From: Bacteroidales bacterium
GTDB lineage: Bacteria; Bacteroidota; Bacteroidia; Bacteroidales; Paludibacteraceae
Assembly (NCBI GenBank): GCA_012837935.1
Contig: DUQG01000045.1
Span: forward strand, 42,989 to 106,988
DNA length: 64,000 nucleotides
Direction: 5' to 3'
Shown here: one piece after another, positions 6,023-62,796 of the stretch
How positions within the stretch are numbered: the stretch's first letter is position 1
Layout: each line of letters begins with the position of its first letter
Notes under the pieces: model-generated
The model's input: the letters and a program-made list of their open reading frames with translations, nothing else
Databases searched by the model: none
Told to the model about the DNA's origin: nothing
Made by a program: the position numbers and the translations under genes

Positions 6023-6239
6023 GATTTTATTGATTAGTTGATTAATTAGCTGAATAGTTAAATTTTAGTATTTTGAGATTGAAATAACCTTTATCTTCTA
6101 TTGCTGTTTGAATTAAGTAGCAGTTACTTGGTGTTGACATACAGGAAACCTGTCCGACTTTCGGTGGAACTTGTCCGACTTTGACGGATGTTTGTTCCCC
6201 TGAAACAAAACCCCTTTCTCGTTTAAATGGGAAAGGCTT

Positions 6240-6344
6240 TTATACTTTTATAACACACAATAAATTATATAACCATTCATTCTTTTGATTTTCTATCAAA
6301 AGAATAAAGACGATAACGTTTAATATGGTGTGTAGTGAATTCAT
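6240..6344 (-). CDS. small hydrophobic peptide, copy 2 (MNSLHTILNVIVFILLIENQKNEWLYNLLCVIKV)
   Basis: Homologous to copy 1. TATCTTTAC box at 6361-6369 (minus). Confidence 0.5.
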   Translation of the reverse strand: MNSLHTILNVIVFILLIENQKNEWLYNLLCVIKV

Positions 6345-6682
6345 ATTTTTAGTTTTGTTTGTAAAGATACAGTAAGTTTTTAAATATTACAACATGTTTA
6401 ATACAAAATGCTTACATAATTATGATGTAAATAAATTCGTGGTTTTTATGTTATTAGTAGTGGATAAGTTGTTGTAAGGTAGAATGAAACATAAAGTTCG
6501 CATTTTGCCATTTGTGTTTTTAAAACCTTACTTTTATCGTCAATGTTGTGAAGTGAAGAGATTTTTGGTAACTTCAATGTCAGATTTTATAAAACTTTAA
6601 CATTTACTATGTAGCGTTTTGGGATTAAAATCCATCATATATATAGAAGTCATTTTTTATCACACATAAACACACATTAATT

Positions 6683-7027
6683 ATGAGAAAAGGAACGATT
6701 TTATTTACAGTTATTGCTCTGTTTCTGCTGATAGGCGGAGTAGGCTGTGAAAAAGATATCCAGAATGATTGTTACTCAGGAATAATTGTGTCTCTAAATG
6801 AAAGAAATGCTTGCAATGATATTGTGAAAATTGATAAATCTATTGATAATGGACTGTCAGTTGGAACCAATTTAGCATTTTACTCAGGTTTGTTTGATAG
6901 AAAATTAGAAATAGGAGAAACAATCTACTTTAAAGTGCTTAGTTATGAAAAGTGGGTAGGTCCTGCAAATGCATCGTGTTTATGGCCTCATTATGTTGCA
7001 CAAATTGAAGTTTGTCAATCCAAGTAG
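6683..7027 (+). CDS. putative lipoprotein
   Basis: Signal peptide with lipobox-like 'LIGGVGC'. Confidence 0.6.
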   Translation: MRKGTILFTVIALFLLIGGVGCEKDIQNDCYSGIIVSLNERNACNDIVKIDKSIDNGLSVGTNLAFYSGLFDRKLEIGETIYFKVLSYEKWVGPANASCLWPHYVAQIEVCQSK

Positions 7028-7104
7028 CTTAACAGTTACTTCTCTTTTTTCTTTCTATTCTAAAAAACTCTCTTTCCGATAGACTGTTTTTCCTCTAAAA
7101 GATT

Positions 7105-7112
7105 TATCTTTG
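7105..7112 (+). promoter_or_regulatory. -7 box TATCTTTG upstream of butyrate kinase
   Basis: TAnnTTTG 16 nt upstream of ATG. Confidence 0.6.
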
Positions 7113-7127
7113 TAAAAAACTATTACT

Positions 7128-8192
7128 ATGAACAGAATTCTTGTAATCAATCCCGGCTCTACTTCCACTAAAGTAGCTATTTTTGAAGAAAATACATTGG
7201 TTGATGTTTTTACTATTCGTCATTCTGTAGAAGAGTTGCAGGCTTATCCACGCGTTATTGACCAACTTGATTTTCGCTACGATTTAATTGTAAATCACTT
7301 ACGAGAAAATGCGGTTACTTTTGATTTTTCGATTGTAATGGGACGGGGAGGAATGCTTCCGCCTGTGGTTTCAGGCATTTATGCAGTAAATAAAAAAATG
7401 CTTGACACGCTTCGTCGTGCAGAACGAGGCGAGCATGCCAGTAATTTGGGCGCTTTCTTGGCTGATAGAATTGCTCGGCAAATTCCGGAATGCCGTGCCT
7501 ATATTGCCGACCCTGTAGCAGTAGATGAAATGGATGAAGTGGCACGCATCAGTGGAATGCCAGAAATTCCACGTCAGACTATTTTTCATGCGCTAAATCA
7601 TAAGGCTGTAGGAAGAATGTATGCCACTCAAATAGGCAAACGTTATGAGGAACTAAATTTAGTTATAGCCCATTTAGGTGGCGGGATTACCATTGCTGCT
7701 CATCGAAAAGGACGTGTGGTGGATGTCAATCAAGGACTGGACGGCTATGGTGCTATCATGCCGGAAAGAGCAGGAACCGTGGATGCCGGAAGGCTGGTAA
7801 AACTCTGTTTTTCGGGAAAATACACGCAGGAGGAAATATTAAAGAAACTTGCCGGGAAAGGCGGTCTGATAGCTCATCTTGGTTCCAATAATGTACAAGA
7901 ACTGGAACTAAAAGCCAAAGCAGGTGATAAGCACATTCAACTGATTTTAGATGCGATGGCTTACACAGTCGGCAAAGAGATTGGCGCTATGCTTATGGTG
8001 CTGAAAGGCGATGTAGATAGCGTAATTTTAACGGGTGGTGTGGCTTACAGCGAATATGTGGTTAGCCGAGTAAAAGAAATGGTTGAACCTTATGCAAAGT
8101 TTACTGTGTTGCCCGGTGAAGATGAGATGGCAGCATTGGCTTCAAATGCAGTGAGATTAATAAAAGGCGAAGCGGAAAGTCTTGAGTTTTGA
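7128..8192 (+). CDS. buk: butyrate kinase
   Basis: 'ILVINPGSTSTKVAIF' acetokinase-family motif. 354 aa. Confidence 0.92.
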   Translation: MNRILVINPGSTSTKVAIFEENTLVDVFTIRHSVEELQAYPRVIDQLDFRYDLIVNHLRENAVTFDFSIVMGRGGMLPPVVSGIYAVNKKMLDTLRRAERGEHASNLGAFLADRIARQIPECRAYIADPVAVDEMDEVARISGMPEIPRQTIFHALNHKAVGRMYATQIGKRYEELNLVIAHLGGGITIAAHRKGRVVDVNQGLDGYGAIMPERAGTVDAGRLVKLCFSGKYTQEEILKKLAGKGGLIAHLGSNNVQELELKAKAGDKHIQLILDAMAYTVGKEIGAMLMVLKGDVDSVILTGGVAYSEYVVSRVKEMVEPYAKFTVLPGEDEMAALASNAVRLIKGEAESLEF

Positions 8193-8471
8193 GTTTTACA
8201 GAACACAAATTGCACAAATTACACGGATTTACACAATTTTTTTATCAGGTTTTCTATGCTTCTAATTCTCTAATCCTTTGTATTACATGTTTTCAAAGGA
8301 TTAGTTTTGAATTATTTGATTTGAATGTTTTGAGAACAAATAAGCTGGTTATTTTATCATTATAACATCAACCAAAAAATCCCCCCTTGCGCTGCTCTGA
8401 GCGCAGTCGAAGGATAGTATTTAGGCATTAACATTCAAACTACATATTACTAACTACATACTAATAAAACA

Positions 8472-9413
8472 ATGGCAAAATATCCTGAATTTTTAAAACC
8501 TGGTGATGAAATACGTATTATTTCACCTTCCGGAAATATTGAACCTGAATTGATTGACGGTGCAAGGTCGCAAATAGAAGAATGGGGCTACAAACCTATG
8601 GAAGGGATGTTCACACGTAAGGTTTATGGACGATTTTCAGGAAATGAGCAAGAGCGTTTTACCGACTTGCAGCAAGCACTTGATGACCCTAATGTGAAAG
8701 CAATTCTTTGTAGTAGAGGTGGTTATGGTTTAGCGCAGATAATTGATAGAATTGACTTTACGCGTTTCCAAGAAAGTCCGAAATGGGTGATTGGGTTTAG
8801 TGATATTACTATTTTGCATGAGGCATTGCTGAAAAATGGCGTGGTGTCCATTCATAGCGGTATGGCAAAACAGCTGACAGAACAAGCCAATGATGCTCAG
8901 CCAAATGTATTACTGGAAAATATTTTAAAAGGAAAATTTCCCACTTATAAAGTGGTTGCAAATTCTAATAATCGTTTTGGAAAGGCGAAAGGTAGGCTAA
9001 TAGGTGGAAATCTTTCCGTGTTTATGGGAATGCGTGCTACGCCTTTTGATATGCAATACAAAGGCGGTATCCTTTTTATAGAAGATGTGGGCGAAAAACC
9101 GTATCAGATTGACAGAATGATGCAAAACTTGCGTTTAAGCGGTGCTTTGTCCCAGCTTTCGGGATTGATTGTGGGACAATTTACCGAAACAGAAGAAGAC
9201 CCTGATATGCACGCTACGATTTACGAAATTATAGCCAATGCCGTGAAAGATTATTCTTATCCGGTTTGTTTTGATTTCTCTGCCGGACATATTGACGATA
9301 ACTATCCTCTATTGATGGGTGCTGATGTAACGTTGAATGTGGATGAGCAGAGCAGTGAAATAGCATTCCCAATCACATTTTGGCGAAAAGCAAAAGATTT
9401 ATTAAAAAAGTAA
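8472..9413 (+). CDS. LD-carboxypeptidase (peptidase family S66)
   Basis: 'LKPGDEIRIISPSG', 'CSRGGYG', 'GFSDIT' motifs. Confidence 0.9.
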   Translation: MAKYPEFLKPGDEIRIISPSGNIEPELIDGARSQIEEWGYKPMEGMFTRKVYGRFSGNEQERFTDLQQALDDPNVKAILCSRGGYGLAQIIDRIDFTRFQESPKWVIGFSDITILHEALLKNGVVSIHSGMAKQLTEQANDAQPNVLLENILKGKFPTYKVVANSNNRFGKAKGRLIGGNLSVFMGMRATPFDMQYKGGILFIEDVGEKPYQIDRMMQNLRLSGALSQLSGLIVGQFTETEEDPDMHATIYEIIANAVKDYSYPVCFDFSAGHIDDNYPLLMGADVTLNVDEQSSEIAFPITFWRKAKDLLKK

Positions 9414-27929: not shown

Positions 27930-29951
27930 ATGGTAGAATATTATAATAACACATTAGTAGTGGAAGCAAGTTGGCTTGTGGACAATGAAATAATGTCTGA
28001 AAGTCAGTACCGACATGCAACCACACGTAAACAAGTTCAAGTTGTACGGCGGGGATGCCTGAACACTCCGGCTCTTGTTGCTTATGATAGTATGCCTGAC
28101 CGTTTTAAGCGGAAAGTGGTAGAGGTTATCGGTAAAAGTCCGTATGAGGTTATAAAGACCAACTACCTGCAAGAACTTATTGAAGATAGAGCGGATATTT
28201 CGGAGTTTTTTGAAAACTACAAACTGACAAATGGCCGATATATCCCGAAAAACACACGCCACGAGTACTATATCAATGCGATAGTATTGGAGGCAGTACA
28301 TATCATGCTGACCGATAAACGTGCAAGACGTTCGGCACTTGGACATAAAACCACAAAGATATGGGAAAAGATAGCTGAGGCAGTTATGGAACTTGACCGG
28401 ATACGTTTCCCGCACTCATTACCGTCCAATCCGAGACGATTGGAAGATAGATACAAACGGTACCGGAAAGAAGGTGCAGTGAGTTTGATACATAAAAATT
28501 TCACAAATAAAAATGCCGCTTCTGTGGATAGCGAAGTAAAAGAGAGCGTATTGGTAGAAATATTAGCCGCACCAAGTAACCTTGACAATGCACAGGTGGC
28601 TAAATTTTACAATATGGTGGCTGAAAAAGCCGGATGGAAAACAATTACTACCGGAACGGTGGCTAATTTCCGTGAAAAGCACGAAACAATGATATATCCG
28701 GGCAGACGTGGCTCAGTGGCATTTATGAATAAAAAGACAATGCAGGTTAAGCGTTCTGCCCCGAGTGCTCCGCTATACTACTGGACGCTTGACGGTTGGG
28801 ATGTGGAGCTTATGTATCAAAAACACGAAGGCAACCGCACAACCTATCATCACAGACCAACGGTTGTGATAGTATTGGATGCTTTTAATAAATACCCGAT
28901 TGGCTATGCCGTAGGAGATAGAGAAAATCCACAATTAATTCAGATGGCGCTACGCAATGCAGCGAAACATACTGAGGAACTATTCGGCAAAATGTATCGG
29001 ACGCACCAAATTCAGAGCGACCGCTACGCTATCAGCATGATGACACCATTCTACGAAACGCTTGCGGATAAAGTAACTCCGGCACGTGCGAAAAATGCAA
29101 AGGCTAAGATTATCGAACCGTATTTCGGGCACTTGAACAAAACCTATTGTCAAATACAACCAAACTGGAGCGGTTTCGGGATTACTTCAGATGCTGAAAA
29201 ACAACCAAACAGCGAGTTTCTTAATACATATAAAAAGAATTTCCCTGACTTTGATGGTGTATGCAAGCAGGTTGAGTTGATTGTATAGGCAGAGCGTATA
29301 CAAAAGGTTGAGCGACTAATGGAAGCTTGGAATGCAATGGCGGAAGATGACAAAATAGAACTTACCTACCAAAATTATTTATTACAGTTTGGCTCGACTA
29401 CCGGACGACCGATTTTAATGCAACACAACGGACTACTTCCAACAATTGAGGGTGTAAAAAGGACGTATGACTGTTTTGATGTGAATTTTCGCAAGCATAG
29501 CTCTGTAAAATGGAATGTGATGTATGACCCGGACGATATGAGCCGTGCGCTGGCGGTTAATGAGGAGCAAACGCTCCAATTCCTACTCGAAGAGAAATAT
29601 GTCCAACCAATGGCATTAAAAGACAGGAAAGAGGGCGACAGCGAGCAACTGCAACGAGTGAGAGAATTTAACCGGGAACTTATACAAGAAGTAACGGAAT
29701 TTAGAGCCGAAACCGCTGAACAAAGCAGAGGCATATTGGAAATGGTACCGGAACTGGAAACGCTGAAAAAGCTGGCGATAACCGACAGCAAAGGTCAGCA
29801 TAAGAATGAGAGAAACAAGGCTCGGTTAGCCCCACCCCAGCCCTCCCCTCACTGGGAGGGTGATGTCGGACAGGAATGTCCGACCCCCGTAAGAGTGGTT
29901 AATCAAGTGCAGGCTGAAATAACGGAAACATCGTATTTGGATAAATTATAA
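27930..29951 (+). pseudogene. Mu A-like DDE transposase with in-frame TAG at 29286-29288
   Basis: ORFs 27930-29288 and 29319-29951 share one frame. rve-like core 'YYWTLDGWDVELMY', about 670 aa like MuA. Confidence 0.85.
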
Positions 29952-30268: not shown

Positions 30269-31141
30269 ATGGTACTAACAGACAATGTAAAAAAGGAAAT
30301 CGTAGATAAGCTGATTGCTTATTGCGACAGGTACGAAAGCCAAAACAAAGCGGCTAACACGCTTAAAGGCGTGAGTTCGGCAACCATTAGCCAAATGATA
30401 AACGGCAAGTGGAAACTGATTGCCGAGAATATGTGGCGAAACGTAGCAAGTCAAATCGGATGGCGGGAGCATGAGTGGAACTCAGCAGTAACATCTAATT
30501 TGAGAGAACTAAACAGTTTCTACACAACGGCACAAGAGCAAAGTATGGTGCTGGCTATCACAGCCGAAGCCGGAACCGGTAAAACATGGGGTGCACGTGA
30601 GTATTGCTCCAACAACCGGAGTGCCTACCTTATTCAATGTAACGAGTTTTGGAGCAAAAAGACTTTCCTTGCGGAGTTGAGCCGAGTGGTAGGAATAGAC
30701 AATAGAGACCTTACCATGGGCGAAATGATGCAGGATATTGTATGGCAACTAAAAAGTGATAACAAGCCTATCATCATTCTTGATGAGGCTGATAAACTGA
30801 GCGATGGTATCCTTTATTTTTTCATTACGCTGTACAACTATCTGGAAGACCAATGTGCATTGGTACTGCAAGCGACTGACTATCTCGAACAACGGATGAA
30901 ATCCGGATTGCGGAAAAACGCAAAAGGTTTCCCTGAAATATGGAGCCGTGTAGGCAGGAAATGTATCAAATTAGATGGCGTAAGTGCGGACGATATTCGG
31001 AATATTTGCCTTGCTAACGGCTTAACAGATGAACGAGATATTGAAGTTGTGGTAAATGACAGCGAGGGCGATTTTAGACGTGTAAAACGGAAAATACAGG
31101 CGATTAGAAATAAGCGGCAAGCAGTAAGCAGCAAGCAGTAA
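30269..31141 (+). CDS. Mu B-like AAA ATPase transposition protein
   Basis: 'ITAEAGTGKTWGAREYC' Walker A, 'PIIILDEADKL' Walker B, N-terminal HTH. Confidence 0.88.
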   Translation: MVLTDNVKKEIVDKLIAYCDRYESQNKAANTLKGVSSATISQMINGKWKLIAENMWRNVASQIGWREHEWNSAVTSNLRELNSFYTTAQEQSMVLAITAEAGTGKTWGAREYCSNNRSAYLIQCNEFWSKKTFLAELSRVVGIDNRDLTMGEMMQDIVWQLKSDNKPIIILDEADKLSDGILYFFITLYNYLEDQCALVLQATDYLEQRMKSGLRKNAKGFPEIWSRVGRKCIKLDGVSADDIRNICLANGLTDERDIEVVVNDSEGDFRRVKRKIQAIRNKRQAVSSKQ

Positions 31142-33505: not shown

Positions 33506-33688
33506 AAGCTGAATAGCTTACTCTCCATCGCTCGCTTGGCTGCGAGTGGTGGAACATAAACCGCTACCGATGGCGTTCGGTGCGGCGGGCAGATGCAAAC
33601 GGGAAGGTATCTGCCCGGGACTGATTTTTTATTAACACAGGGGATACGACAGGCGGGAGTGCCTATCCCCATTAAAACACACACGGAT

Positions 33689-34639
33689 ATGGTATATGGA
33701 TACGTACGGGTAAGTACAGATACACAGGATGTGGAAGCTCAGAAAATAGGAATTGAAGAAAAAGCAAAAATTTTGAATTTATCTATTGATAGATGGATAG
33801 AAGATGACGGTGTAAGCGGCACTACTGAATTTCAAAAGAGAAAATTAGGAAAATTGATGAAAATTCTAAAAGAAGGAGATGTCATAATTGCTTCTGAAAT
33901 AAGTCGTTTTGCCCGTAAACTTTTTCTTTTATTTGAGTTTTTGGGATTTATTACCAATAAAAAAGTGGAATTGTGGACTGTAAAAGACAATTACCATTTA
34001 GACGGTTCCTTACAAAGTACTATTATGGCATTTGCTTTTGGTATAGCTGCACAAATAGAGCGAGATATGATATCGCAACGAACAAAAGAAGGATTGCAAC
34101 GAAGACGAATGGACGGCGTTATTCTCGGTCGCCCAATTGGAGGAAAAAACAAACCCTCAAAGAGAATTGAAGCAAAAATTCCGCTTATTGAAAAATATGC
34201 GAAAATGGGTTTGTCCTATTCCACTATTGCAAGATTAACGAAACTGCATAGACTTACTGTTGCTAATTATTGTAAAGAGAATGGATTTACCGAGCAGTCA
34301 GAGAGATATAAAAATTCAACAAAGCATATTCAAAAGAGAGCTGAAGAAAGGAAGTTGTCCAAATCATTGAAACTATCAGCTATTAATATTACACCGGAAT
34401 ATTTAATAGATGAGTTTAAAAACAATTTTTATAATATCAGCAACTTGGCAAAATCCATAGAAATACCTGTTGGACAGTTAATGGGGATGATAAAAACGTA
34501 TGGTCTTGAAGAAGAATTGGCAAGGCTACAAGCAGAAGCACGTGAAAAAAACCCATCACTTTCTGCCCAAGGTAGAAAGTTAGGACTTTCTGACACCAGA
34601 GATGTTAGGCGTTATATCAACAATCATAAAAACCAATGA
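33689..34639 (+). CDS. serine recombinase (resolvase/invertase family) with extended C-terminus
   Basis: 'VYGYVRVSTDTQDVEAQ', 'IASEISRFAR', 'ERDMISQRTKEGLQRRR'. Start at 33689 with CACACGGATATG leader. Confidence 0.88.
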   Translation: MVYGYVRVSTDTQDVEAQKIGIEEKAKILNLSIDRWIEDDGVSGTTEFQKRKLGKLMKILKEGDVIIASEISRFARKLFLLFEFLGFITNKKVELWTVKDNYHLDGSLQSTIMAFAFGIAAQIERDMISQRTKEGLQRRRMDGVILGRPIGGKNKPSKRIEAKIPLIEKYAKMGLSYSTIARLTKLHRLTVANYCKENGFTEQSERYKNSTKHIQKRAEERKLSKSLKLSAINITPEYLIDEFKNNFYNISNLAKSIEIPVGQLMGMIKTYGLEEELARLQAEAREKNPSLSAQGRKLGLSDTRDVRRYINNHKNQ

Positions 34640-52817: not shown

Positions 52818-55800
52818 ATGGAACCGGTTGAAATAGACATAAGGATGAAACAAAACGTGTCGGAAGAGGGCGAAAAAGCTACCGACTCGATAAACAAGAT
52901 GGATGAAGCCGCTCTTCGTGCAGCTACTGACATAAAAGCTAAAATTAAAGAGCAGAAGTCGATTATTAAGCAAATAGAAAGCGACATAGCATATATACAA
53001 AAGCTATACGATCATGCAGTTGCTGGAAAGGCAAAATTGAGTTTAGGTAATGAACTTGAAACTTTGAAGAAAGCATTAGAGGTAGAAAAGAATGCACTTG
53101 TCGAGCTTGAAAGTAAAGTAGAAACGACCGCTCAAAAGCATGCTAAGCTTCGTACAGAGGTGATGGAAGCGAAGGAAGAGGTTTCGCGATTAGAAATGGC
53201 TGGTAAACGTGGTTCGGAAGAGTGGGATATAGCAATAAATAAGCTGGCTAGTTTGAATGATCAAATGCAGGACACCAACCAGATAGCTAAAACCATTGCC
53301 GATGATGAGAGAATTTTTAAATCCGTTGCTTCCGGTGTATCCGGATTAGCGGGAGCTATGAGTGCTGCGGTAGGTGTAGCTTCTCTATTTGGTGCCGAAC
53401 AAGAAGAATTAACAAAAATACAGACCCGTTTACAGTCGGTAATGGCAATTACTATCGGATTACAACAGGTTGCTGAAACACTTAATAAAGACAGTTACTT
53501 CAGGATTGTTTTACTCTCAAAAGCAAAACGGGGTTGGGCCGCCGCACAAGCTTTTCTGAATACACAGTTAGGTATTGGTGTGGGGCTGTCGAAGGCTTTA
53601 ATGTTTTCAGGTGTAGGATTACTTATAGCCGGAATAGGTTCTTTAATTGTCCTGTATCAAAAATGGTCAAAAAAACAGGAGGAAGAGCTAAAGCTTATTC
53701 AGGAGCGACTCCAAGTACAAGCGCAATTAAAAAGAGAAATCGCTGATAGCTACGCATCGGAAGTCTCAAAAATTGAAGCTGCTCGCGCAGCCTTAAATTC
53801 GGAAAATGTAACACGGGAACAAAAACTGGGGATTATAGATAAGTTAAAAAAACAGATACCCGGTTACACGGCGGAGCTCGACACCGAGGGCAGACTAATA
53901 CGAGAAAACACAGAAGCATACAACGACTATCTTGTTTCACTCGAAAAGTCGCTACTATTAAGAGCCGCAGAAAAAGATTTGGAAAAGCTGTTGGCACAAA
54001 AATACCAACTTCAAAAATTTGAAATAAAGGAAGAGCCAAAACCAATATTTAATGGGTATGAAGTTGATTTAACTTCAGGCAATATACCGGAATGGCAAAA
54101 GAATTTCGATAAAGCAGCAAAAGAAGGAATTGCAGAAATCGATAAAGCTATTGAAAGAATAAAAGACTATATTGCTAACAACTCTTTAATTGACATACCC
54201 AAGCCAACAGGAGGGGAACCTCCTTCTACTATCAAAAAAGAATATGACGCCCAAGCCGAACTTGCCAAGCAACTAACTGATTTGCGGAAACGTATCGCTG
54301 AATTGGAAATAGAAACCATGCAGGAGGGTTTTAAAAAGAAAATAGCACAAATCGACCATGAGGAGGAAACCGAGCTAAAACGGATTGAGGATTATCAGAA
54401 AAAATAGTTGAAACCTACAATAAGGATAAAGATGAAAAGAACAAAGTAAAAGATATAAAAGATATTCCCGGTATCAAACCTGAAACGCTTGCGGAAATAG
54501 AAGCAGAAAAAAGCAAAATATCTGCTGTGGCAGAAGAAAAACGCAAACAAGCGACAGTCAACAACGCCAAAGAGATAGCGGAACTGGCTCGGAAGTATGC
54601 AAGTGAACAAGTAAAAATCGAGCATGATTACCAGCAGGATATTGATAAACTGACCGCTGCCGGAAATCTGGAAGCTGCGAATGCGGCAAAAGCTGAACGA
54701 GATAAACGCATTTCGGAACTAACGGCGGAAATGATTGAAAGCAGCTCTATCTACAAGCTGGCAACCGACGAGAAAATACAAGCATCCAAGAAAGCAACCG
54801 AAGAACTGGTGTCCGACATCAAAAAACGGATAGAACTGCTCGTAAAGGAAAACAAACTGACACGTGAAGCAGCAGACCAGATGCTGAAAGATATTGATAA
54901 AACGCAGGTTTCTCGAGAAAACAGCAAAAACGAAAACAATCCTTTCGCTAAACTACTGAGCGGACTAAATAAGTACAAAGGGGCAAAAAAGGAGCTTGAT
55001 GATAAACGAGGCAGCACATCTGCGGAGGACTTGGTAAAGCTGGAAGACACAGCTAACAAGGCGCTAAAATCCACAGCCGAAGCATCCGCCGAAGCATTGA
55101 TGGGCGTGCAGGCTATTCTCGGCTCGGTAGTTGGTGCGCTTGACCAATTGGGTGCGCTAACCGAAGAGGAAAAACAAACCGCCAACGAAGTGATTGGCAT
55201 GGTAGGCGGAGCAGCAGAGCTGGCGCAAGGTATTGCAACCGGTAACCCAATCGGAATTATTACCGGAGCAGTTAATCTACTTTCAAATGCTATTTCTTTT
55301 TTCGACTTTAAAAGCAAAAAAATTGCCAAACAGCAGAAGGAGCACAAAAAAAACTTGGAGGAGCTAAGCAGAGCGTATAACAATCTACAGCGTGAAGTTG
55401 ATAAGGCTCTCGGTACGGATGTTTACAAAAAACAGAAAGAAGCGATCAATAATCTACAGAAGCAGATAGCCGAAAACGAGCGACTGATTGCACTTGAAAA
55501 TCAGAAAAAGAAAAAGAAACGAGACAAGGAAGCTATTGCCGCATGGAATGCGGAAATTGATGCACTGAAAGGCGAAGTTAACGATACCATTCAGTCCATT
55601 GTCGAGGACTTGGCGCAGACCAACGCCAAAACCTTAGCACAGCAACTGGCGGATGCGCTGGTAGATGCAGCTCGCACCGGAGAAGACGCTTTCACTGCGA
55701 TGGGAGATGTGGTTAATGATGTGCTGCGCAATGCGGTTGTAAATTCACTATCTAAAAAGTTTTTGGAAAAACAGATGGGCGATGCGGTTGAGTACCTTGC

Positions 55801-56209
55801 CGATGCGATGGAAAGTGGTGGTAAGCTGGATGACTACGAAAAGCGCCGATTTGAAGAAATGATTCGCAACGCCGGAAATAATTTCAACACGGCAATGCAA
55901 GCCTACAACGAGCTATTTGCACCGGAAGAAAAAGAGCGTAGTTCCGCTGCCAAAGGAATTGCACAGGCAAGTCAAGACAGCATTGACGAATTAAGCGGTA
56001 CCATTACTTTTATGGCGGGTGAGTTTCGCACTTCCAACGTTCTGGCAGCTGCTCATGCCGAAAGTGCAAAAGATACACAGATTTCTGTACAAGCAATACT
56101 GGCTGTGCTAAATACCATTGCCGAAAATACGGCATACTGTAAAATGTTGGAAGATGTAGCAGAGAGTTTAGATAGAATTAACCGCGACGGCATAAATATT
56201 AAAAAATGA
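52818..56209 (+). pseudogene. tail tape-measure protein split by an apparent frameshift at 54399-54407
   Basis: ORF 52818-54407 continues in the -1 frame as 'IVETYNKDKDEKNKVKDIKDIPGIKPETLAEIEAEKSK...' into ORF 54527-56209. Breakpoint is an A6 run. Confidence 0.7.
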
Positions 56210-57045
56210 TAATCGACGGCACAGATATACGGACGCTTGGCATGTTTATCCTTCGGGGTGGCTCGAATGACTTTTTGTCGTTCCCGGAACGTCGGGAACC
56301 CGACACAAACGACTGGGCAGAGTATGACGGGTTGGAGGTGGATTTTGAAGATTTAAGCTACAATCCTAAAAAAATAAGCGTTCAACTGTACATTTCTGCT
56401 CCGGACACTACGACATTTAACCAACGCTTAAATGCTTTTCAAACGCTGAATAATCAGCAGGGATATCGGCAGGTTTTTGTCAAAGAATTTAACCGGACTT
56501 TCTTACTCCGTTATCTTGGTTGTGCAGACTATAAGCACAAAGGCGGGCTGGCAACTTCAGGAAAGAAAAGCGGACGACTCACGGTGGAATATATGATGGA
56601 CAATCCGTTACAACTGTTTTCAACACAGGAAGCACCGGTCGGAAATAAAACGACACATGTTAAGCTTGGCGAACTTGATTTGGGACAATACGGAATTATT
56701 GTAAAAGAGATTTACTCAACAGCACTTAATCCCGGAATGAGAAAGCCGGTACTGGAACGAAGCATAAAAAACATTTCCGGCATATCGGCAGATGTGAGTT
56801 TCGTGCCGAAAAAGCAGGCATTGCAGACTACTATTGACTGCGTGATGATTGCTGACACATTGCAGGACTTTTACACCAACTACAATGCTTTATTTGGCTT
56901 GCTTAATATGCCTGTGCCGATAGCACTTAGCACACATTCGGCGAACTATCAATGTTACTATAAAAGTATGAGCGGATTTACAAAAGAGACCGCATTTTCA
57001 AGAAAAGTACGAGTTTCATTTCAACTAAATTTACAAACAATATAA
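56206..57045 (+). CDS. distal tail (Dit)-like protein
   Basis: Position after TMP; 'YNPKKISVQLYISAPDTTTFNQRLNAFQTLNNQQGYRQVFV'. Confidence 0.6.
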   Translation: MIIDGTDIRTLGMFILRGGSNDFLSFPERREPDTNDWAEYDGLEVDFEDLSYNPKKISVQLYISAPDTTTFNQRLNAFQTLNNQQGYRQVFVKEFNRTFLLRYLGCADYKHKGGLATSGKKSGRLTVEYMMDNPLQLFSTQEAPVGNKTTHVKLGELDLGQYGIIVKEIYSTALNPGMRKPVLERSIKNISGISADVSFVPKKQALQTTIDCVMIADTLQDFYTNYNALFGLLNMPVPIALSTHSANYQCYYKSMSGFTKETAFSRKVRVSFQLNLQTI

Positions 57046-57047
57046 CT

Positions 57048-57572
57048 ATGGCAACAAAAATTAGGATTGGAAATGACTTCACACTATCGTGGAGTATAGT
57101 AAGAAATTCCTTAGCAGAAAACTTGGAGGCAGTATCCAATCTGTCTGTGCAACTACTGCCTTACGGTAAACCAAGCATTCCGATAGCTCCGGAAAATTAC
57201 CGTATTTCCGGAAACAATATCACGATTGACTTTACTGCCAATATGTTTACCGAAACCGGAAGCTACGGAGTGGAACTTTACTACAAAATACCTGACGAAA
57301 CGCTTCTTGACGGAATGCGCGAGTGTACAGTTGATGTAGAGGAAATTATAATTGTAGGAAAATCCGCCAAAGCGGACAAAGTAAGAAATATCGCCGTAAC
57401 CAGTGAAGTGGCAATTGGTTTTAAGGGCGACAAAGGGAAACCCGGCGAGGACGGAAAACCTGTAGTAATGTACTTCGAGGTGGATGATAATATGCACCTT
57501 CAAATGACCTCGACAGAGGACAGTGTAATTGATTTTGAAATTGAAAATAACCGATTAAAATTAGTAGTGTAA
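57048..57572 (+). CDS. tail protein with short collagen-like tract
   Basis: GFKGDKGKPGEDGKP (five G-X-Y triplets, 57417-57461). Confidence 0.6.
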   Translation: MATKIRIGNDFTLSWSIVRNSLAENLEAVSNLSVQLLPYGKPSIPIAPENYRISGNNITIDFTANMFTETGSYGVELYYKIPDETLLDGMRECTVDVEEIIIVGKSAKADKVRNIAVTSEVAIGFKGDKGKPGEDGKPVVMYFEVDDNMHLQMTSTEDSVIDFEIENNRLKLVV

Positions 57573-58159
57573 TGGCAAAAAAAGATTTAGGAAAAATAGC
57601 AATCACTCCGAGAGGTGAGTGGGTGCAAGGTACAGAGTATGAAAGACTCGATGTTGTAAAAGCAAACGGCGGAAGTTATCTATCGTTAGTAGATAATAAT
57701 AGTGCTGAGTTGGCAGATGAGACGGCTTGGATGGTATTAGCTGAAAGAGGATTACAAGGTGGTAAGATGGAATATTCGGATTTGACAGACGAGGATAAAG
57801 ATGACTTGGTAAGTCATACAGAAAAACCACTTATAAATGAAAATCCTATTGAATTACCTTTTAGAGTTGGAACGCGAAATGGTGAAATAGGTCAATTAAA
57901 ATGTCAAGCAATAAGGATTGGTAGTCAATACAATGGCGTATCTGACACCTACAAATTTGAAAGATCTGTACACATTATTACCGTTATTGGTGTTCAGTTT
58001 GATTTAACTGAAGAAATTCCATTTAAATTAATTAACCCTTCAGACGTAATTATTGAAAATGATGAAAATTATAATACTCAAATAAGGCTTGTTAAATATG
58101 TTTCAACATATTTAATTGTTTTCTATGTAGAAACAGGAGATTTTCTTTTGTCATGTTAA
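57572..58159 (+). CDS. tail/fibre-associated protein
   Basis: 'GEWVQGTEYERLDVVKANGGSYLSLVDNNSAELADETAWMVLA' carbohydrate-binding-like module typical of phage fibres. Confidence 0.6.
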   Translation: MAKKDLGKIAITPRGEWVQGTEYERLDVVKANGGSYLSLVDNNSAELADETAWMVLAERGLQGGKMEYSDLTDEDKDDLVSHTEKPLINENPIELPFRVGTRNGEIGQLKCQAIRIGSQYNGVSDTYKFERSVHIITVIGVQFDLTEEIPFKLINPSDVIIENDENYNTQIRLVKYVSTYLIVFYVETGDFLLSC

Positions 58160-58773
58160 ACATAGCTATCATCGGCAATGGCTGTAACACTAAAAAGTAC
58201 GGCAGCTTCATTGATAGTTTCGATGAGGTTGTTCGTATTAATGGTGGTGCGATGGAGAGAGCCATTTCAGAAAACAGCGAATATGTCGGAACAAAAACAA
58301 CGCTTGCCGTTTTCAACAATTGGAATTTCAAAACAGATATTCCTACACATCCGGATGTGCTCGAAGCGCATAAGTATGCAATAGAAAATAATATACCGAT
58401 AGCATATTCTCGTAAAAACATCATTATCCGAAAAGGTAATGAACTAAAAAACGGAATACCTATCGAATATCTGGATAAAGTGCCTAAGCAAACAATATTC
58501 GGGATAACTAAGGATTTATATGATTACATAGAACAACTATACGATTACAAGCATCCGACTTCGGGGTTGAAAATTTTGTTTTATTTTCTCAAACAAGGCT
58601 ATAGAGATATTGCATTGTTTAATTTTGGATTTACAGGAGTACATTTTTTTGACAAGAAATGGCATGATGTTATGACCGATAAGCGATTTGAAGCTCATTA
58701 TCACAACGGAAAAATAGAGCGTGATATTATTGAAGATTTACAAAGGAAAGTATTAGTGAAAATTTATGAATAA
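58153..58773 (+). CDS. GT29-type sialyltransferase-like glycosyltransferase
   Basis: Motif L-like 'IAIIGNGCNTKKYGSFIDSFDEVVRIN...VGTKTT', motif S-like 'HPTSGLKILFYFLKQGYRDIALFNFGF', motif III/VS-like 'HYHNGKIERDII'. Confidence 0.75.
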   Translation: MLNIAIIGNGCNTKKYGSFIDSFDEVVRINGGAMERAISENSEYVGTKTTLAVFNNWNFKTDIPTHPDVLEAHKYAIENNIPIAYSRKNIIIRKGNELKNGIPIEYLDKVPKQTIFGITKDLYDYIEQLYDYKHPTSGLKILFYFLKQGYRDIALFNFGFTGVHFFDKKWHDVMTDKRFEAHYHNGKIERDIIEDLQRKVLVKIYE

Positions 58774-59413
58774 CACACTTGTAATTATACCTGCTAAAGT
58801 TCACAGCGAAAGGGTGCTAAATAAGAATATGCGGCATATTGACGGCATTCCACTATTTGTACATTCCATTAATTACGCAAAACAGGAAGGTTTCAAGCAC
58901 ATCGCCGTGAGTAGCGATGGCGAGCATATTTTGAAGATAGCTAAAAGTTTAGGTTGCATTCCGGTTAAAGAAAACGTAAATGAAAGTAAATTGGAGTACT
59001 GTGTTAATCAGGTATTGGCACAAGAAAAAGGCTATAGGTATTTTGCACTTCTACAACCCACATCTCCACTTCGAGAAAAAGACAAACTGAAATCTATGCT
59101 CGCAAGAATGAAAAACGAGGAGTTGGAAACACTTCTTACCTGTCAGCAGATAAAGCCTGTAGCGTGGCTTGACCAGTACTGCTTGTTTGACGTTCAAAAT
59201 AGACCATTAAGTCAGCAAGCTAAAAGTTGGATATATCACTTTGATGGCAATATCTTGTTGCGTAATATTGAAAGTTATAAGAAAGAACAAATACTTATTC
59301 CGCAGGTGTCAGGAATAGAAGTAAATGCGTTTCCATATTACTTGCAAATAGACACCATAGAGGAATTTAATCAGATTAAAATGTATGTTGAAAAAAATAC
59401 TGAAAAAAGATAA
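58766..59413 (+). CDS. cytidylyltransferase, CMP-sialic/nonulosonic acid synthetase-like (NeuA/PseF type)
   Basis: 'LVIIPAKVHSERVLNKNMRHIDGIPLFVHSI', 'FALLQPTSPLREKDKL'. Confidence 0.82.
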   Translation: MNNTLVIIPAKVHSERVLNKNMRHIDGIPLFVHSINYAKQEGFKHIAVSSDGEHILKIAKSLGCIPVKENVNESKLEYCVNQVLAQEKGYRYFALLQPTSPLREKDKLKSMLARMKNEELETLLTCQQIKPVAWLDQYCLFDVQNRPLSQQAKSWIYHFDGNILLRNIESYKKEQILIPQVSGIEVNAFPYYLQIDTIEEFNQIKMYVEKNTEKR

Positions 59414-59621
59414 ACTCCTCCACTTGTCGGCAGGCTTCATGATAGCCTGCCTGACAACCATGTTAACTAAGCACTGGTGGCTTATTTTGCTTATTCCTAC
59501 AATAATTGGTATAGTAAAAGAGCTTGTTTGGGATAAATGGTGGAAACAGGGAACACCGGAATGGTTGGATGCTGTGGCTACGGCTCTCGGTGCTGTGGTG
59601 TGGCTGATATTAAACAGATAA
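59385..59621 (+). CDS. small membrane protein
   Basis: 'KDKLLHLSAGFMIACLTTMLTKHWWLILLIPTIIGIVKELVWDKW'. Confidence 0.55.
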   Translation: MLKKILKKDKLLHLSAGFMIACLTTMLTKHWWLILLIPTIIGIVKELVWDKWWKQGTPEWLDAVATALGAVVWLILNR

Positions 59622-59623
59622 CA

Positions 59624-60100
59624 ATGAAAGAAATTTATACAGCATTAATAAACAGAATAAAAGAGGAGGTTCCTGCTATTAAATGGATAGACTGGGACAC
59701 AGGACAGTTGGATGGCTACACAATCATAAAAGGAGATGTTCATCGTCCGCCACTTAAGTATCCGGCAGCACTTATCACTATCGGAGTTAATTCCGCTAAA
59801 GATATTGTGGACACAATCCAAGACTGTGTGGTTCATATCAGCATACGCTTAGCGTTTGAACCTATGGAACGGACAAATTCCGAAGCCACGCCGGAAGTGC
59901 GAGACTCGGCGTTACAACCCTACGATGTTATAGATAATCTGTATGCAGCACTACAAGGATATGAAACTGAAAATTTTCACAGCTTATCACGCATGAGCCA
60001 AGGAAAAGAAAACAGCCACAATGGGCTGTTTATCTATCGCATGAATTTTAAAACTGATTTTGAGGATTACGGGGCAGATTCCTCACAAAAGGGAATATAA
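59624..60100 (+). CDS. phage tail-completion/terminator-like protein
   Basis: 'MKEIYTALINRIKEEVPAIKWIDWDTGQLDG...YPAALITIG'. Start at 59624 rather than 59537. Confidence 0.5.
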   Translation: MKEIYTALINRIKEEVPAIKWIDWDTGQLDGYTIIKGDVHRPPLKYPAALITIGVNSAKDIVDTIQDCVVHISIRLAFEPMERTNSEATPEVRDSALQPYDVIDNLYAALQGYETENFHSLSRMSQGKENSHNGLFIYRMNFKTDFEDYGADSSQKGI

Positions 60101-60286: not shown

Positions 60287-60415
60287 ATGAGCAAATTTAC
60301 TTATAAGGAACAACATGCTGTTATCGTGAAGTGTAGTAACGAGGACGAACAAAGAAAAACTTTTGAAGAGTTAAAGAAAATGGGGTATAAAGATTTAAAA
60401 TTAGTATCAGTATGA
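60287..60415 (+). CDS. 42-aa small protein (MSKFTYKEQHAVIVKCSNEDEQRKTFEELKKMGYKDLKLVSV)
   Basis: ATGA overlap with the next gene. Confidence 0.5.
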   Translation: MSKFTYKEQHAVIVKCSNEDEQRKTFEELKKMGYKDLKLVSV

Positions 60416-61545
60416 AAATTGAAATCAAGCACGAAACAAAAAACTTCGACAGCTTTCGTGCTAATAAGGTGAAAAGCCTTTTTAATCCTGAGCACGGTAA
60501 CTGGGAACACGTGGCAGACCTGCCTATTGAAAACAACGACTGGAAAATCGGGTTAATAGTTGGCCCGAGTGGCTCTGGTAAAACAAGTATCGGTAATCGT
60601 ATTTTTGGGCGCATCCACGACCTTTATGCTGACTGGGATAGTGACAAGGCTATTGTTGATTGTATCGCACCGGAAAAGACACTAAATGAAGTTACAGCCG
60701 CACTTTCGGCTGTAGGTTTAGGAGATGTTCCCGCGTGGCTACGCCCTTTTAATGTTTTAAGTAACGGTGAGAAGTTCCGGGCAGGACTGGCGCGCTTGGT
60801 AGTTGAGCGTCCGGATAAGGTGGTAGTTGACGAATTTACAAGCGTAATCGACCGACAAATCGCCAAAGTTGGCGCGGCAGCTTTTGCAAAATCATGGAAA
60901 AGAGGATCAGGACAAGTTATTTTGCTATCCTGCCATTACGATATTATTGAGTGGCTCCAGCCTGACTGGATATATGATACAGCGGAGGCACGGTTTAGCC
61001 GTGACTGCCTTCGGCAACGCCCACAACTCGAACTTCAAATTTATCAAGTCAGCGGAAGTGTATTCAGGCATTTTAAGCCGCATTATTATTTAGACTTACC
61101 ACTACCGGTGGCGGGAATGTACTACGTGGGTATTATAGACGGCGAGCCGGTTTGTCACTTGGCAGTGTCGCCACTATTTACCGCTAAGGCGTACAGAGCT
61201 ACCCGACTGGTAGTAATGCCGGAGTGGCAAGGGATAGGCGTTGGCACTAAATTTCTGAATGCCATTTGCCAGTATCACCTTGACGGGTACGGTCGCGGTG
61301 GGTACAAATACCATACGTTTTTCCATACTTCGCACCCACAACTCTGTGGAGCATTACGCCACTCTCGAAAATGGATACAAACAGGTGCACGCCTTTACGG
61401 TGATAATAAAGCCAGAAGCGCCAAATCCCTTAAAAAATCGCATTTGAAAAACGGAATTAAAAACAGATGCTCTACCGGATACGGTGGGCACTTTCGAGCC
61501 GTACAAGCTTTTAAATATATAGGAGAAAACAGCAATGAAAATTAG
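60412..61545 (+). CDS. ABC-type ATPase fused to GNAT acyltransferase domain
   Basis: 'GLIVGPSGSGKTSIGN', 'LSNGEKFRAGLARLVVERPDKVVVDEFTSVIDR', C-term 'ATRLVVMPEWQGIGVGTKFLNAI'. Confidence 0.82.
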   Translation: MKIEIKHETKNFDSFRANKVKSLFNPEHGNWEHVADLPIENNDWKIGLIVGPSGSGKTSIGNRIFGRIHDLYADWDSDKAIVDCIAPEKTLNEVTAALSAVGLGDVPAWLRPFNVLSNGEKFRAGLARLVVERPDKVVVDEFTSVIDRQIAKVGAAAFAKSWKRGSGQVILLSCHYDIIEWLQPDWIYDTAEARFSRDCLRQRPQLELQIYQVSGSVFRHFKPHYYLDLPLPVAGMYYVGIIDGEPVCHLAVSPLFTAKAYRATRLVVMPEWQGIGVGTKFLNAICQYHLDGYGRGGYKYHTFFHTSHPQLCGALRHSRKWIQTGARLYGDNKARSAKSLKKSHLKNGIKNRCSTGYGGHFRAVQAFKYIGENSNEN

Positions 61546-62026
61546 AATTTTAGGAAATAAAGAGACGGAGGCATTTAAGAGGGCTGAGCGGCTTGTTAGG
61601 TCGCTCGCCCATGTGACGGAGTTTGAAGGCGTAGCGGATTTGGCAATTGCGCCGTTATTGACCGAAATATTAACGGTTGAGGAATTACAAGAGCCATGGC
61701 TTGGTACGCTTATTTTTCACCCATCTCCACTCCCATACGGGCGTGGAGCCGCATCAATTAAATGGGCGTACAGGCGTAAGGAACCAATAACAGCGGCGAC
61801 TTGGTTCTGGGCTGATGCTGAGCTTGATACCGGAGCAATCTGCGAGCAGGAGATAATTAAAATAGACTACTCGAAACGCCCGCGTGAGTTCTATGAGGCT
61901 GATATATTGCCAGCTATGGAACGAACGCTTAAACGGTGTTTATTTGCTCTTAAAATGGGGTTTAAAAGAGAGGTGCCACAGGTGGAAGAGTATGCGAGCT
62001 TTGATAGGAAGGAGGGTAAAATATGA
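61535..62026 (+). CDS. compact formyltransferase-fold protein
   Basis: 'LIFHPSPLPYGRGAASIKWAYRRKEPITAATWFWADAELDTGAICEQEII'. Confidence 0.8.
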   Translation: MKIRILGNKETEAFKRAERLVRSLAHVTEFEGVADLAIAPLLTEILTVEELQEPWLGTLIFHPSPLPYGRGAASIKWAYRRKEPITAATWFWADAELDTGAICEQEIIKIDYSKRPREFYEADILPAMERTLKRCLFALKMGFKREVPQVEEYASFDRKEGKI

Positions 62027-62796
62027 AAACCCCACTTGTCTATTATGGTGGTAAACAAACAATGCTAAAACATATCCTTCCACTCATCCCGGAACATTCG
62101 ATTTATACCGAAGCGTACGCCGGGGGGTGTGCCGTGCTTTTTGCAAAGACGCCGAGCAAAGTAGAAGTTATCAACGATTTGAACGGCGAGCTGATAAACT
62201 TTTATCGCATTTGCCAATTGCAGCCTGAAGCATTGCAACGGGAAATAAAAACATCTCTTCACGCCAGGGAATTGAACGAACACGCTTTGCATATTTACCG
62301 ACATCCGGTATTTTTTAATCCTGTACAAAGAGCGTGGGCGGTGTGGTTTTCCCTTAAAACCAGTTTCTCTGCTCAAATTTCTGGCGGCTTTAGTTATGAC
62401 AGGCATGGAAAGAAACCTACTGCACTCCAAACAGCCGTAAACAGATTTGATGATGCTATAATTGAGCGAGTGAAACAAATTACCATTGAGCAAAACGAAG
62501 CCACGAAAATCATACGGATTTATGACACACCGGATACTTTTCACTTTATAGACCCGCCATATGTGGATTGCAATCAAGGTCATTACAATGGGATGTTCAA
62601 CCATCAGTCGCTTGTAGAGTTGTTGGAGCTATGTAGTAGCTTGCAGGGTAAATTTATGCTGACTATGTATCCTAATGATGTAATCCAATCATTCGCAGAT
62701 AAATATCATTGGACTATTCACGAAGTAAACCGAACCGTTACAGCTGCCAAAACCACACGCAGGAAACAAGTTGAATGGATGGTATGTAATTATTAA
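62023..62796 (+). CDS. dam: D12-class DNA adenine methyltransferase
   Basis: 'LVYYGGKQTMLKHILPLIPEHSIYTEAYAGGCAVLF' and 'FIDPPYVDCNQGHY' (DPPY). Confidence 0.9.
   Translation: MKTPLVYYGGKQTMLKHILPLIPEHSIYTEAYAGGCAVLFAKTPSKVEVINDLNGELINFYRICQLQPEALQREIKTSLHARELNEHALHIYRHPVFFNPVQRAWAVWFSLKTSFSAQISGGFSYDRHGKKPTALQTAVNRFDDAIIERVKQITIEQNEATKIIRIYDTPDTFHFIDPPYVDCNQGHYNGMFNHQSLVELLELCSSLQGKFMLTMYPNDVIQSFADKYHWTIHEVNRTVTAAKTTRRKQVEWMVCNY

Follow-up and report, generated by a model that had tools for sequence, protein, structure and literature searches.

Why should a Mu-like prophage in a gut-type Bacteroidota genome carry, within its late region, a gene resembling GT29 sialyltransferases next to one resembling CMP-sugar synthetases? 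To our knowledge, GT29 enzymes have been studied almost wholly in animals. The window, i.e., the whole 64,000-nucleotide stretch of DNA that was analyzed, is part of contig 47 of the source genome (2.8 Mb, 99% complete). The prophage's late region, on the plus strand, holds four ORFs that overlap by 7, 8, and 29 nt, with the boundaries given by the first-pass annotation (Table 1). That annotation had also placed a sialylation cassette inside the tail operon, and the setting bears this out: PHROGs matches identified head and packaging genes (terminase, portal, and major head protein), a Sipho_tail gene lies upstream, and Porphyromonas gingivalis phages match the region in gene order and in several proteins.

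Table 1. Coordinates of prophage and cassette features in the window
Feature	Position	Strand	Basis and remarks
Transposase	27930-29288		PHROGs
MuB-type protein	30269-31141		PHROGs
Serine recombinase/DNA invertase-type gene	33593-34639		In prophage
Tape-measure gene (two ORFs)	52818-56209
Sipho_tail gene	56206-57045		Pfam; directly upstream of module
Small late protein with short collagen-like stretch (GFKGDKGKPGEDGKP)	57048-57572	+	ORF; directly upstream of module, after Sipho_tail gene
Tail fiber-like protein	57572-58159	+	phrog_5073 tail fiber (8.4e-6), phrog_20680 (4.4e-6)
GT29-type sialyltransferase-like protein, 206 aa	58153-58773	+	PF00777, AlphaFold2, Foldseek
Sialylmotif L core (IDSFDEVVRIN)	58210-58242	+	Back-translated pattern match
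CMP-nonulosonate synthetase-like protein (NeuA/PseF type), 215 aa	58766-59413	+	PF02348, AlphaFold2, Foldseek
Hydrophobic 78-aa protein	59385-59621	+	ORF
Phage structural gene phrog_6911	59624-60100	+	6e-35; closes low-GC module downstream
ABC-ATPase/GNAT fusion, formyltransferase, and Dam-type methylase genes in a row	60412-62796

The cassette is set off from its surroundings by base composition: GC is approximately 34%–36% in the two enzyme genes and 33% across the whole cassette, versus 40%–46% in adjacent tail genes. Matches of the tail fiber-like product to tail fiber families are confined to its N-terminal ~60 aa, and the C-terminal part of its gene has a GC of 30% (GC3 0.16); the fiber tip may have arrived jointly with the cassette. 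Neither a promoter nor a terminator of the cassette's own rose above shuffled background, and no convincing inverted-repeat pair, as sought for an invertible tail segment, was found flanking it. Pfam and PHROGs gave no confident family for the small collagen-like product upstream or for the 78-aa protein downstream, so there is no evidence that the latter is a member of a sugar pathway. Hence, of the four overlapping genes first noted with the sialylation cassette, the GT29-type and synthetase genes are retained, while the fourth gene has no family tie to such a pathway and may not belong; holin-like is a guess for its product. The phrog_6911 gene follows the cassette here, whereas its neighbors in the related Bacteroidota prophages L261, L262, and L265 are the portal and morphogenesis genes. 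A frame change of one base, at a run of A near 54400, divides the tape-measure gene into two ORFs; it may reflect assembly error, decay, or slippage (indistinguishable here), and the prophage may be defective because of this split.

The 206-aa protein matches PF00777 above the curated cut-off (34.5 versus 23 bits), over residues 5-56 only. All motifs quoted in its favor are present (IAIIGNGCN, IDSFDEVVRIN, VGTKTT, HPTSGL, FNFGF, and HYHNGKIE), and a back-translated motif L pattern has one match in the window and none in 100 shuffles. Motif L residues G17, I20, D21, D24, V26, R28, N30, G46, and T49 are kept. An alignment of 82 sequences shows D21, V26, R28, and G46 to be invariant and G17, I20, D24, N30, G138, and H184 nearly so; the relatives were fetched by a motif L DNA pattern, and their motif L conservation is thus partly built in, whereas that of G138, H184, and E189 lies outside the fetching pattern and is not. 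Motif VS is complete (H184-NGKI-E189, i.e., H-x4-E with the catalytic His), and motif S (P-S-T-G ... G-F-G) is partial, with P135, S137, and G138 present and the GF pair shifted (N157-F158-G159-F160). At the motif III position, the protein reads WHDVM where relatives read HYWE or HYYE, and the motif is not recognizable.

The single sequence matches little in the PDB, and further evidence comes from relatives and from structure prediction. PF00777 was matched individually by 80 of the 82 aligned sequences (best 1.6e-37), with at most 31% identity between the window protein and the sampled relatives. A profile of the 82 relatives matched ST3Gal1 (4.5e-27) and ST6GALNAC2 (2.3e-20) ahead of the GT42 enzyme CstII of Campylobacter jejuni (1.6e-10). 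The AlphaFold2 model (pLDDT 80, pTM 0.80) gave the same order in Foldseek (6apl at 2.3e-7 with a query TM of 0.65, 2wnb at 1.3e-5, and CstII at 1.5e-4); its best matches were ST6GALNAC2, ST3Gal1, and ST8SiaIII, and all 29 PDB matches (E up to 0.001) were sialyltransferases, GT29 first. CstII also uses CMP-sialate and has a related fold, but it ranks under GT29 in both comparisons, and a GT42 identity was rejected. The comparison suggested by the first-pass annotation therefore leaves the protein among sialyltransferases, with GT29 ahead, and on its profile and modeled fold the GT29-type identity stands. Like the CAZy GT29 family, the protein combines a complete motif L, the motif S P-x-x-G, the motif VS H-x4-E, and the GT29 fold of the GT-A variant 2 type; unlike it, the protein has only 206 aa, no membrane anchor (no transmembrane segment was seen by eye), and no recognizable motif III. 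Taken together, the Pfam and fold evidence, the partial motif S, and the missing motif III show the resemblance to GT29 to be strongest in the fold and in motif L, and the predicted acceptor side differs from that of GT29.

The neighboring 215-aa protein gave a full-length match to PF02348 (CTP_transf_3; 52.4 bits, cut-off 22.6). The best NCBIfam model was PseF (TIGR03584; 63.6 bits), below the equivalog cut-off of 205.7, and the cut-off of the KdsB model TIGR00466 was not reached either (38.6 versus 155.2 bits). Folds closest to the AlphaFold2 model (pLDDT 91) were those of CMP-Neu5Ac and CMP-Kdn synthetases (1eyr at 2.4e-15, 9t4z, and 6ifd first; KdsB from rank 13), and the family profile ranked NeuA (7.1e-58) over KdsB (6.6e-20). 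The NeuA/PseF-like identity given to this gene at first is thus upheld, nearest to CMP-sialate synthetases, and by profile and model the protein stands as a CMP-nonulosonate synthetase type. As in NeuA, PseF, and LegF, K20-N21, LLQPTSP, Q150, and D196 are kept; unlike in these enzymes, R11 (family motif IPAR) is replaced by K, R69 by E, and D194 by Q (Q194-I-D196-T for D-I-D-T), at positions that are kept in 76%–96% of aligned synthetase relatives and presumably take part in nucleotide or metal binding. The synthetase of viral locus L066, the closest among the matches listed (34% identity), has all three substitutions in common with it, so they are more likely a subfamily mark than random damage. 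Use of CTP by the window synthetase is a prediction from sequence.

A scan of IMG/VR with a degenerate motif L DNA pattern fetched at least 116 loci, and Jackhmmer searches on 116 pattern-fetched loci found GT29-like ORFs in at least 111 contigs. A CMP-sugar synthetase was present in 44 of the 116 loci listed and NeuB in 13, compared with none of 80 control loci fetched by an arbitrary 14-mer (57% as many bases). The synthetase directly adjoined the GT29 gene on the same strand, or was fused to it, in 29 of the viral loci listed and in L244, a phage-like contig from a Planctomycetia MAG that also carries a tape-measure gene. For example, locus L107 encodes a synthetase-GT29 fusion of 480 aa directly followed by NeuB, and in L066, a synthetase gene is followed by three GT29 genes in tandem, with an amidase and a 1110-aa tail protein encoded alongside. 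Given the recurrent adjacency, fusion, and NeuB linkage, with no such case among controls, the synthetase/GT29 pair is a recurrent phage cassette. Its presence in many environmental phages makes it look like a widespread phage sugar-coating system, and the functional link between the two enzymes, proposed in the first-pass annotation from this one locus, is strengthened. In a quick tree of GT29 relatives, weakly supported and without firm placement of the window protein, the paired label needs several changes, so the pairing cannot be put down to an accident in a single lineage.

Outside this prophage, the majority of paired loci belong to sugar-biosynthesis islands and not to tail operons, with sugar epimerase, aminotransferase, glycosyltransferase, and HpcH/HpaI aldolase genes as neighbors. 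Unpaired GT29 genes have terminase and capsid genes as immediate neighbors in a few cases, which supports a viral origin of those contigs, and PHROG 4603, annotated as an alpha-2,3-sialyltransferase, matches two genes adjoining GT29 genes. Relatives in the Bacteroidota genera Ohtaekwangia and Algoriphagus are found in apparent surface-polysaccharide clusters, that of Ohtaekwangia including an aldolase-like gene. Deposited phage genomes are almost devoid of GT29-like matches, the exceptions being an uncultured 484-kb phage and Stenotrophomonas phage DLP_6. Neither window protein was found in INPHARED phages, tblastn of both against phages and plasmids returned nothing, and viral contigs scanned with the GT29 protein, the synthetase, or a three-row alignment as query gave no match. 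Among 358 genomes of the host's family, none yielded a full-length relative of the window GT29 protein; weak matches there (L035–L037), confined to residues 153-194 and lying in very long frames, were set aside.

The sugar itself is a further part of the question. It had been assumed that the host makes the precursor, and its genome lends this no support: NeuB, KdsB, and any CTP_transf_3 gene besides the phage's were not found in it, and KdsA had no match above the cut-off in the host genome or its genus. Matches to KDO8P synthase in the genus were all below the cut-off, in frames of ~360 aa that we took for DAHP synthases. NeuB occurs in three of eight genus genomes, each time with an adjoining CTP_transf_3 gene. 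The host does carry three BNR_2 sialidase-type genes and one GlcNAc-2-epimerase gene, the latter flanked by ORFs that we interpreted as encoding a sialate O-acetylesterase and a ROK regulator. With these candidate genes, and no identified transporter among them, scavenging of sialic acid by the host is plausible. A "host precursor" would therefore mean scavenged sialic acid or another host, and the sugar is probably either sialic acid scavenged in this host or a product of other, NeuB-carrying hosts of the phage.

Our preferred reading, to which we give somewhat better than even odds, is that the two genes together constitute a phage cassette for glycosylation with a nonulosonic acid, i.e., a sialic-acid-type nine-carbon sugar; the activity of the cassette, the identity of the sugar, and the timing are what we infer. 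The free nonulosonic acid would be joined to CTP by the 215-aa enzyme to give the CMP-sugar, from which the 206-aa enzyme would pass the sugar on to an acceptor inside the cytoplasm, with H184 (together with E189) as the putative catalytic base. Given its place in the tail operon, where it follows and overlaps the tail fiber-like gene, the pair would be expressed late, together with the tail genes. The acceptor has close to an even chance of being the virion (tail fiber or another tail protein); a cell-surface glycan, with receptor masking or serotype change as the outcome, is a substantial possibility, and anything else is improbable. Maf enzymes, which glycosylate flagellin, offer an analogy for a tail protein as acceptor. 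A further precedent is FlmG, which transfers nonulosonic acid to flagellin protein in the cytoplasm (PMC7591256). The location of most paired loci in sugar-biosynthesis islands weakens the case for a tail acceptor. We are doubtful about the wider claim of a widespread phage nonulosonic-acid system, composed of a small cytoplasmic GT29 enzyme and a co-encoded or fused synthetase with or without NeuB, whose tail-operon versions sialylate tail proteins directly.

A different use of the same enzymes, which we consider quite possible, is the decoration of host LPS or capsule as a lysogenic or late conversion, which would mask the receptor, exclude superinfection, or keep progeny off debris. Phage-encoded changes to capsule nonulosonic acids are known from epaA/epaB in Acinetobacter (PMC12053666) and from phage O-acetyltransferases (PMC6586298), and both the sugar-gene neighborhoods of most paired viral loci and the surface-polysaccharide clusters of the Ohtaekwangia and Algoriphagus relatives fit this use. 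However, a pair in a tail operon would mainly be made during lytic growth, and no nonulosonate synthesis was seen in the host genome. The CMP-activated acid might also be something other than a sialic-acid-type sugar, such as Kdo or the product of a dedicated aldolase, given the HpcH/HpaI aldolase genes near paired loci, the aldolase-like gene in the Ohtaekwangia cluster, and the weaker matches of KdsB models to the synthetase. We consider this unlikely: the LQPTSP motif and the fold ranking favor nonulosonate synthetases, and NeuB accompanies the pair in other phages. Kdo in particular is disfavored by the fold ranking and by the lack of a KdsA match above the cut-off in the genus.

Two readings do without a working pair. 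Recently acquired low-GC genes could be decaying passengers, now inactive through erosion of catalytic residues; three altered family-conserved residues in the synthetase, an unrecognizable GT29 motif III, the split tape-measure gene, and the lack of a precursor pathway in the host all point this way. Nonetheless, both ORFs are intact, motif L and the H-x4-E motif are complete, both AlphaFold2 models are fairly confident, and L066 combines the same synthetase substitutions with a similar neighborhood, making decay a rather poor prospect. That two unrelated sugar genes came to lie side by side in one prophage by chance would agree with the missing full-length GT29 relative in the family genomes and the absence of both proteins from INPHARED. 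It is very improbable, and was rejected, in view of the recurrent linkage to synthetase and NeuB genes in other viral contigs and its absence from the control loci.

The predicted cassette of our preferred reading differs from the described phage systems nearest to it. The epaA/epaB products and phage O-acetyltransferases modify an existing sugar or residue, whereas activation and transfer are proposed for the window pair. Virion glycosylation in mycobacteriophages would likewise use phage-encoded glycosyltransferases, and we know of neither nonulosonic acids nor a co-encoded CMP-sugar synthetase in it. These glycosyltransferases have been suggested to glycosylate the capsid (PMC11256854). GT29 genes with the same fold occur in eukaryotic viruses (Mimiviridae, herpesviruses, and poxviruses) and in uncultured Caudovirales; BFVD has two entries with the name GT29, including one from an uncultured Caudovirales phage, so as an annotation GT29 is not entirely new to phages. 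A co-encoded synthetase or tail setting for those viral genes was not described in the sources searched, and no account of a phage GT29 and synthetase pair was found in the open-license PMC literature. A 2018 survey by Petit et al. listed 23 bacterial GT29 proteins, 19 of them alpha-proteobacterial, without the animal cysteines and transmembrane domain; it proposed a bacterial origin of eukaryotic sialyltransferases, with viruses unmentioned and phages not considered (PMC5811610). That at least 111 viral contigs carry GT29-like genes, frequently next to a donor-sugar gene, bears on that origin. If active, the pair could allow a phage to carry sialic-acid-type sugars on its virions or install them on gut bacterial surfaces, affecting host range, superinfection, and recognition, and as compact soluble enzymes the two could be of practical use. 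Were tail proteins the acceptor, the virion would be coated with a sugar also used by animal hosts.

Several further gene arrangements were observed. The three tandem GT29-like genes in L066 (1970-3565), each encoding ~177 aa, lie downstream of a single synthetase, suggesting several linkages or acceptors. In L107, a 200-kb viral contig, genes for a formyltransferase, a radical SAM-like protein, the synthetase-GT29 fusion, and NeuB stand in one row (3888-9015). A Bacteroidota chromosomal locus (L003, 1087-3140) has a GT29-like ORF upstream of a UDP-GlcNAc 4,6-dehydratase-like gene (PseB type), an arrangement consistent with a nonulosonic acid cluster. Downstream of the cassette in the window, the ABC-ATPase/GNAT fusion (phrog_11143) shares 74% identity with proteins of P. 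gingivalis phages, and phages of Gordonia and Pseudomonas also encode relatives of it; together with the formyltransferase and Dam-type methylase genes in the same row, the fusion appears to resemble a Mom-like DNA modification module.
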